NCBI GenBank assembly: GCA_027858835.1
Contig: JAQIBY010000050.1
Span: forward strand, 1-37,255
DNA length: 37,255 nucleotides
Source of the DNA: Bacteroidales bacterium
GTDB lineage: Bacteria > Bacteroidota > Bacteroidia > Bacteroidales > ML635J-15
Direction: 5' to 3'
The notes beneath the pieces are model-generated. The model was not told the origin of the DNA. It saw only the letters and a program-made list of their open reading frames with translations, and searched no databases. The position numbers and the translations under genes are program-made. This document shows, in pieces, positions 27,815-28,728 of the stretch. Numbering within the stretch: position 1 is the first letter of the stretch; the number at the start of each line of letters is the position of its first letter.

Positions 27815-27965
27815 TTAGACTTTAAAATTAGAAAAATAACCTGAGATTAAACATGTTTTTGGCTTAAAACTTTCATTCGGGAAAATTCAATATATTTTAA
27901 ATTCCATTTTATACCGATTAGACATCAATCCGAAAGCTGACGGATCAGCACAAGTCGTTCTGTAT

Positions 27966-28005
27966 GCCTGCCTGCCATCCTCAGCTGGTAAATAGGCAGA
28001 CAGGC
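27966..28005. repeat. Intergenic inverted repeat (hairpin)
   Basis: GCCTGCCTGCC (27966-27976) and GGCAGACAGGC (27995-28005); 10 of 11 positions complementary, 18-nt loop. Confidence 0.7.
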
Positions 28006-28222
28006 TTCTCTTTTCGTAATATCGGCATAAACTCAAGAAGTTAATTCGGAACAAAGAAGCCGTGTTTTGTAAACCTAAATATTTACCATATTTTCATCAT
28101 ATTCCACAAAGTTTGCAGTAAAACTTATTAATTATTCTGAAACACAATTAATATTACAAGTAAAATAAAGCGTTGAGTTGGGAAGTTGCGGTAGGTTGAG
28201 ATGGAGAGAGTCAAACTGCTAA

Positions 28223-28260
28223 AACCGCTTTCCCCCTATTGTTACTGGGTTACAGGAATA
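28223..28260 (+). repeat. Imperfect direct repeat, copy 1
   Basis: AACCGCTTTCCCCCTATTGTTACTGGGTTACAGGAATA; 29 of 38 positions identical to 28691-28728 without gaps. Confidence 0.65.
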
Positions 28261-28267
28261 AAAATCG

Positions 28268-28282
28268 GGATCAAGCAAAAAA
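28268..28282 (+). repeat. GGATCAAGCAAAAAA repeat, copy 1 (+), followed by a G-run
   Basis: 15-nt exact repeat; followed by T and eight G residues. Confidence 0.8.
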
Positions 28283-28376
28283 TGGGGGGGGACGTTCCGT
28301 CAAAAGTTTTGTCACAATCTTTGATTGCTTCGCCTCAAAGATATGCGCCAAAACAGTATTTTATAAACTTTAATCA

Positions 28377-28414
28377 CCATGGGTTACACTCGCCTATGGC
28401 TCACTCACCCATGG
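28377..28414. repeat. Intergenic inverted repeat
   Basis: CCATGGGT (28377-28384) and ACCCATGG (28407-28414), perfect 8-bp arms with 22-nt loop. Confidence 0.55.
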
Positions 28415-28559
28415 CTATTAATAGTTTGACCCGCTTCGGGGTCAGAACTTTCCAATGGTTTTAGTGAGTATCAATATGTTCATTAGACGAACCTTTGATT
28501 AATCTTTTAAATGCTTTTAATAATCAGTTTTAAAATAAAATATTAGAATTCCCCTCAGG

Positions 28560-28574
28560 TTTTTTGCTTGATCC
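28560..28574 (-). repeat. GGATCAAGCAAAAAA repeat, copy 2 (-)
   Basis: TTTTTTGCTTGATCC on the plus strand; exact reverse complement of copy 1. Confidence 0.8.
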
Positions 28575-28631
28575 CATTTTTCCTTTATAGATTATCTAAA
28601 ATTTATGCTTGATTTTGTGCTACCCCCCAAC

Positions 28632-28646
28632 TTTTTTGCTTGATCC
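28632..28646 (-). repeat. GGATCAAGCAAAAAA repeat, copy 3 (-), adjoining a C-run
   Basis: TTTTTTGCTTGATCC on the plus strand; exact reverse complement of copy 1; CCCCCC at 28623-28628. Confidence 0.8.
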
Positions 28647-28690
28647 AAAAATCGCTACATATAGCTGATAGCAAGGCAGCAACGGTTAAT

Positions 28691-28728
28691 AACCGCTTTT
28701 ACCCCATTATCACAGGGTTTCAGCAACA
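28691..28728 (+). repeat. Imperfect direct repeat, copy 2
   Basis: AACCGCTTTTACCCCATTATCACAGGGTTTCAGCAACA; overlaps a CGGTTA-a-TAACCG palindrome at its left edge. Confidence 0.65.

Follow-up and report, generated by a model that had tools for sequence, protein, structure and literature searches.

A MITE fused to the relict end of an ISAon1-type insertion sequence in a Bacteroidales genome

Introduction

Several described systems provide the background for the element that we analyse here. A 187-nt MITE of Microcystis, attributed to ISL3-family transposases, has GGCTCTTCG ends and 8-nt repeats that are common to ISL3 elements (PMC11448079). Miniature elements derived from Tn3, the TIMEs, form mosaic non-autonomous transposons (PMC4133298). 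Finally, there are the REP/REPIN repeats and the atypical structures beside the subclass 2.6 TnpA-REP genes of Bacteroidetes (PMC6006769).

The window, i.e. the whole stretch of DNA analysed here, comprises 37,255 nt of a Bacteroidales genome (GCA_027858835.1, contig JAQIBY010000050.1). Positions 28268–28646 of the window are very probably (we estimate the probability at about 0.93, judging from ends, duplications and relatives) a non-autonomous, MITE-like transposon of the kind that would depend on an ISAon1-type (ISL3-superfamily) transposase acting in trans. The element is a composite: a hairpin-rich MITE (28268–28574) is followed by 72 bp from the very end of an insertion sequence of the ISAon1 type. 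Like the Microcystis MITE, it is non-autonomous and hairpin-forming, with ISL3-superfamily ends and 8-nt direct repeats; however, its ends are GGATCAAGC rather than GGCTCTTCG, its host belongs to another phylum, and no insertion-sequence relic is reported in the available part of the Microcystis source (PMC11448079). With the TIMEs it shares the principle of miniature elements building composite or mosaic non-autonomous transposons, but these belong to the Tn3 family and have different ends: the likeness is one of build (PMC4133298).

Results

A 15-mer marks the ends of a mobile element

The first-pass annotation of the window had drawn attention to the 15-mer GGATCAAGCAAAAAA, present exactly at 28268–28282 on the plus strand and at 28560–28574 and 28632–28646 on the minus strand, to an ATCAAGC core on the minus strand at 28607–28613, yielding right-side spacings of 41 and 31 bp, and to a G-run (28284–28291) and a C-run (28623–28628). 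All of these positions and spacings are correct, and the two runs are part of a longer TIR consensus, GGATCAAGCAAAAAANNTGGGG. Judged by dinucleotide composition, about 0.0009 copies of the 15-mer are expected in the window and 0.09 (roughly 0.1) in the 3.6-Mb draft, 99%-complete assembly that we searched; as the assembly contains 21 exact copies and none of the reversed 15-mer that served as the control, a chance origin is excluded. When the copies are lined up, homology starts sharply at GGATC in every one of them and the flanks outside are unrelated, which identifies the 15-mer as the outer end (TIR) of a mobile element. Inward of the 15-mer there is usually a short spacer and a G-run, followed by one of a few recurrent interiors. 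The first-pass annotation had also proposed searching relatives for the 15-mer: of 60 related genomes, 59 lack the TIR and one (G032) has a single copy, and the distribution of the family is therefore patchy. A search of viral contigs yielded no match to the TIR.

The 379-bp element has split a host repeat and duplicated 8 bp of it

The whole element (28268–28646, plus strand) is 379 bp long. Its left TIR (28268–28282, plus strand), extended by a T and the G-run to 28291, and its right TIR (28632–28646, minus strand), extended as a C-run to 28623 on the plus strand, are identical at 15 of 15 positions and, over 24 nt including the G/C run, at 88%. Perfect 8-bp direct repeats, AAAAATCG, abut both outer copies of the 15-mer (28260–28267 and 28647–28654, plus strand). 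When left and right ends were paired without shifting the boundaries, the duplication fitted 28268–28646 (8/8) and not 28268–28574 (2/8).

Repeat search and joined-flank alignment revealed that the element splits a unit of a host repeat of approximately 190 bp, with the left part, including one copy of the target duplication, at 28223–28267 and the right part at 28655–28726 (both plus strand). After in silico deletion of the element together with one duplication copy (28268–28654), the flanks align across the junction with uninterrupted units of this repeat on contigs C24 (three units), C179 (five units), C67 and C23; the alignments are ungapped except for a single base in one C24 unit and one C179 unit. 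These uninterrupted units are paralogous empty sites. We used them because the orthologous site, which the first-pass annotation had suggested for comparison, is unusable: a same-genus genome does lack the element downstream of nadR, but the neighbouring gene differs there too, and no orthologous empty site was obtained. The outer limits that the annotation had set at 28223 and 28728 are the edges of this older repeat (28223–28258 and 28691–28726), which the element has split. The ~190-bp repeat also forms tandem arrays at G000:C179:26871–27880 and C24:3168–3682, with further units on C67 and C23, and each unit consists of two similar halves (AACCGCTTT..CCCC..GGGTT.CAG).

As the annotation had noted, no transposase is encoded between the 15-mer copies: the 379 bp hold no transposase gene, only the C-terminal tail described below. 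The sole notable reading frame (87 aa, 28201–28464) spans both flank and hairpins, and hence was not counted as a gene.

The right end is a relic of an ISAon1-type insertion sequence

From 28646 inward, the sequence corresponds to the end that lies on the transposase side in ISAon1-type insertion sequences. Positions 28577–28612 (plus strand) encode FFLYRLSKIYA-stop, the last 11 codons and stop of a relict transposase gene, to be compared with FFLFRLSKIYA-stop (locus L168), FFMFRLSKIYA-stop (L107) and FFLFRLAKIYA-stop (L169). The relict stop codon lies 34 nt from the element end, at a distance similar to that in real insertion sequences, and the ATCAAGC core at 28607–28613 (minus strand) corresponds to the Ala and stop codons (GCT TGA) of this tail. 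The transposase homology starts directly after the inner TIR (28560–28574, minus strand), which is the right end of the MITE portion. Since 28577–28612 encodes a transposase tail, the 72 bp of 28575–28646 (plus strand) are the relict right end of an insertion sequence, fused to the MITE at 28268–28574. The 8-bp duplication and the terminal sequence are those of the ISAon1 group of the ISL3 superfamily, and a DDE transposase (PF01610/NF049917) is lacking; with FFLYRLSKIYA-stop in place of a transposase gene, the element is a derivative and not itself an insertion sequence. A second right-end relic is located at C176:4975–5028.

Autonomous elements with the same ends occur in other genera. When a single genome of each species was searched for GGATCAAGCMAAAAWNNTGGGG, 69 stretches were obtained, most of which come from Pedobacter, Mucilaginibacter, Sphingobacterium and Lacihabitans and many of which lie at contig ends. 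The transposase behind these ends matches the NCBIfam model ISAon1 (NF049917, E 6.7e-104) as well as Pfam PF01610 (DDE_Tnp_ISL3). The complete 1411-bp ISAon1 transposase element L169 of Pedobacter borealis DSM 19626 has both TIRs in common with the window element, including the same 15-bp sequence, the subterminal motif NNTGGGG and the right end down to the last transposase codons. The 1412-bp insertion sequence L173 of Pedobacter sp. ISL-64 has, like the window element, an 8-bp target duplication (CTAGTAGT); it is nested in a MITE of the same TIR type, an uninterrupted sister sequence of which is found at L148. L173 thus shows directly that the insertion sequence can be nested in the MITE. 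Unlike these insertion sequences, with which it shares TIR and 8-bp duplication, the window element retains only the last eleven codons and the stop, and hairpin-rich DNA takes the place of the gene.

The element belongs to a MITE family of about twenty copies

The element at 28268–28646 is a member of a non-autonomous family that numbers about twenty copies in this genome, and has the hallmarks of a MITE: it is short and without a transposase gene, has TIRs and a target duplication, exists in multiple copies, and has a TIR and duplication length common to an autonomous element. There are two main interiors: type B, to which the window element belongs, measures approximately 290–307 bp, and type A 200–359 bp (for example C29:3254–3453 and C106:19148–19506). 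The type-B portion of the window element (28268–28574, plus strand) has a full counterpart with its own target duplication at C135:6562–6854; further type-B copies are on C82, C86, C35, C69, C134, C138 and other contigs. Exact 8-bp duplications flank the window element (AAAAATCG) and the copies on C135 (GTGGCTTG) and C29 (AAAAAAAA), with 7/8 positions matching on C106. Elsewhere, they flank three elements in Pedobacter sp. ISL-64 and one in a Bacteroidales MAG; all other end pairings match at 5/8 or fewer positions. Many copies lie at contig ends, making the family a likely cause of the assembly breaks.

At C84:26280–26508 and C157:1660–1920 we observed mosaics, in which a type-B interior switches to type A within the hairpin region. 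Tandem TIRs in the same direction (GGATCAAGCAAAAAAGGGATCAAGC) are present at G000:C69:24793–24823 and also at L117, L120, L138, L141 and L159, and such tandem copies recur in Pedobacter, Mucilaginibacter and Lacihabitans. The easiest explanation would be that the element inserted into TIRs already in place, as if it often entered its own end. Another dispersed repeat, with 38 genome matches, lies just upstream of the histidine-kinase gene (window positions ~27905–28055) and is also found inside the MITE copies on C74 and C48.

The interior is a three-hairpin module with other carriers

The segment 28307–28444 folds into three hairpins (all plus strand): H1 (28307–28353), with a TTTTG/CAAAA outer stem and a variable inner stem arranged as TTTTGTCA-stem-GCCAAAA, followed by H2 (28377–28414) and H3 (28427–28444). 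A covariance model built from this genome's copies detects 28 copies in the assembly; nine relatives without the GGATCAAGC end contain further ones, as many as 35 in G057 and 14 in G023. Loci L279–L336 hold copies from these two and from G019, G002, G029 and other Bacteroidia genomes. Phylum-wide, the module was found in at least 3 of 297 genomes, a lower bound with 11 candidates scored per genome. Rfam yielded no match at the gathering threshold in the window, and six module loci gave no match up to E 0.5.

A comparison of 30 copies shows 26 different inner stems between TTTTGTCA and GCCAAAA, and all of them pair. In an alignment of 20 sequences, 86.8% of the cells pair (71.9% in shuffled alignments), 96 cells carry double changes (39.4 when shuffled), and the covariation score is 0.378, compared to 0.141 for shuffled and at most 0.118 for slid versions, the structure having been drawn from these same sequences, so that the slid control leans in its favour. 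Further pair types are not in excess (32 versus 31.5 in shuffles), and the paired double changes are compatible with folded DNA as well as with RNA. In G231, which belongs to another family, the outer stem has also changed in a compensating way (ATTTG/CAAAT).

While the carriers in this genome have GGATCAAGC ends and 8-bp duplications, those in G019 and G023 have CAGGGCAAACGCATAC ends and 10-bp duplications: there the module lies inside elements of approximately 203–228 bp with ends CAGGGCAAACGCATACTTTT, and the duplications match at 10/10 positions in L288, L304, L308 and L311 and at 9/10 in L306 and L314. Other copies of the module have no obvious ends. The same folded module is, therefore, carried by two kinds of MITE with different TIRs and also occurs alone. 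The CAGGGCAAACGCATACTTTT elements of 203–228 bp with 10-bp target duplications constitute a separate MITE family (L288 and L303–L315, in G019 and G023).

As REP/REPIN sequences are (PMC6006769), the module is dispersed, intergenic and hairpin-forming, with many copies per genome. It differs from them in having the invariant blocks TTTTGTCA and GCCAAAA instead of a GT[AG]G foot, in its size (~110–140 nt, three hairpins), in lying between the TIRs of DDE-type elements, and in that consistent linkage to a Y1 gene was not found. Of 61 genomes, 52 have Y1 (RAYT) genes, whether or not they carry the module, and a clear module beside a Y1 gene was seen only once (G023:C48). Such genes are too common to discriminate and seldom adjacent, and a RAYT/Y1 transposase was not retained as the module's likely mover.

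Most likely, the module represents a repeat, structured as DNA or as RNA, that was acquired by MITEs more than once, the alternative being a single ancestral MITE that changed its ends. We advance only tentatively, at somewhat less than even odds, the wider proposal that 28307–28444 is an independent, structure-conserved element of Bacteroidia rather than a side product of a single transposon, with compensating stems and fixed TTTTGTCA and GCCAAAA blocks, and that it travels as cargo in MITEs belonging to two or more unrelated transposase systems and also exists alone.

Discussion

The first-pass annotation had offered a decayed insertion sequence or MITE as one reading of the repeats, and an array of DNA-binding sites as another. 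The former has been borne out in both its halves at once, by the TIR boundary, the 8-bp duplications, the paralogous empty sites, the more than 20 copies and the autonomous relative in other genera; the latter survives in the trivial sense that TIRs are expected to bind transposase, but what has been established is a transposon. The annotation would have abandoned a mobile origin had the genome held no other copies and relatives shown no insertion polymorphism, or had the interval been uniformly conserved as a transcribed RNA. The genome holds many copies and, though the interior includes a structured repeat that is present elsewhere, the interval as a whole is not conserved uniformly as one RNA.

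The structure of the element suggests how it could have arisen. On the simplest reading, a MITE would have entered the transposase gene of a resident insertion sequence, close to the 3' end of that gene, after which recombination between the two identical left TIRs in the same orientation would have removed the body of the insertion sequence. The composite may then have moved here as a unit, or it may have formed here from an insertion sequence that was already flanked by the AAAAATCG duplication; movement would presumably have been driven by an ISAon1-type transposase. As the composite is a single copy in the genome, the order of these events is something that we infer. We would give an even chance to the possibility that an autonomous ISAon1-type insertion sequence landed here and was gutted in place, the 379-bp composite itself never having transposed: the duplication matches at the outer ends but not at those of the MITE, the 72 bp on the right are a genuine end of an insertion sequence and include transposase codons, and the genome holds no second composite copy. 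Nothing decisive speaks against this order of events, which is one of the two that the composite origin allows.

Two other readings fare much worse. That the mobiliser was not of the ISAon1 type but the resident ISL3-type transposase of contig C19, or another, unrecognised enzyme, is very unlikely. C19 does encode an ISL3-family transposase, and the ISL3 elements of Microcystis make 8-nt duplications (PMC11448079). However, the C19 insertion sequence (G000:C19:3011–4300, L096) has GGTTCTACT ends and not GGATCAAGC ends, its gene contains one in-frame stop, and the relic in the window is of the ISAon1 type; on its ends and its stop, C19 was rejected as the mobiliser. Stray ends of the C19 kind (GGTTCTACT) occur on C58, C69 and C79. 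A resident IS1595 element on C86 was likewise rejected, with no GGATCAAGC ends found near it. Least probable of all is that the segment is for the most part a structured RNA under conservation, or an array of regulatory hairpins, with the 15-mers as its protein-binding sites. The interior does fold far better than shuffled sequences (z -8.6), and its three-hairpin module covaries across genomes, but the 15-mers coincide with abrupt insertion boundaries and target duplications, and the same module lacks them in relatives; the module thus accounts for the interior and not for the 15-mers, for which this reading is refuted.

On the preferred reading, a composite of MITE and insertion-sequence relic, the element probably cannot move now, as no intact cognate transposase was found: searched with the NF049917 model, the 99%-complete assembly contains no intact ISAon1 transposase, with weak matches only to the ISL3-type gene on C19. 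The parent insertion sequence has either been lost or is hidden in assembly gaps; with so many family copies at contig ends, an intact one could lie there.

Given that we found no mention of ISAon1 in the literature searched, this MITE family and the composite have probably not been described before, though they are of a known kind: MITEs driven by ISL3 elements have published precedent. The finding ties a MITE family to the ISAon1 group, and provides a clear case of how the body of a parent insertion sequence can give way to a miniature element, documented by a target duplication, paralogous empty sites and a transposase relic. If the folded module is indeed an independent element, it would be under selection for some function, whether it acts as RNA or as a single-stranded DNA substrate, and whether the benefit is its own or that of its carriers; and if unrelated MITEs do carry the same module, the role of the folded interiors of bacterial MITEs could be addressed by comparing the module between transposase systems.
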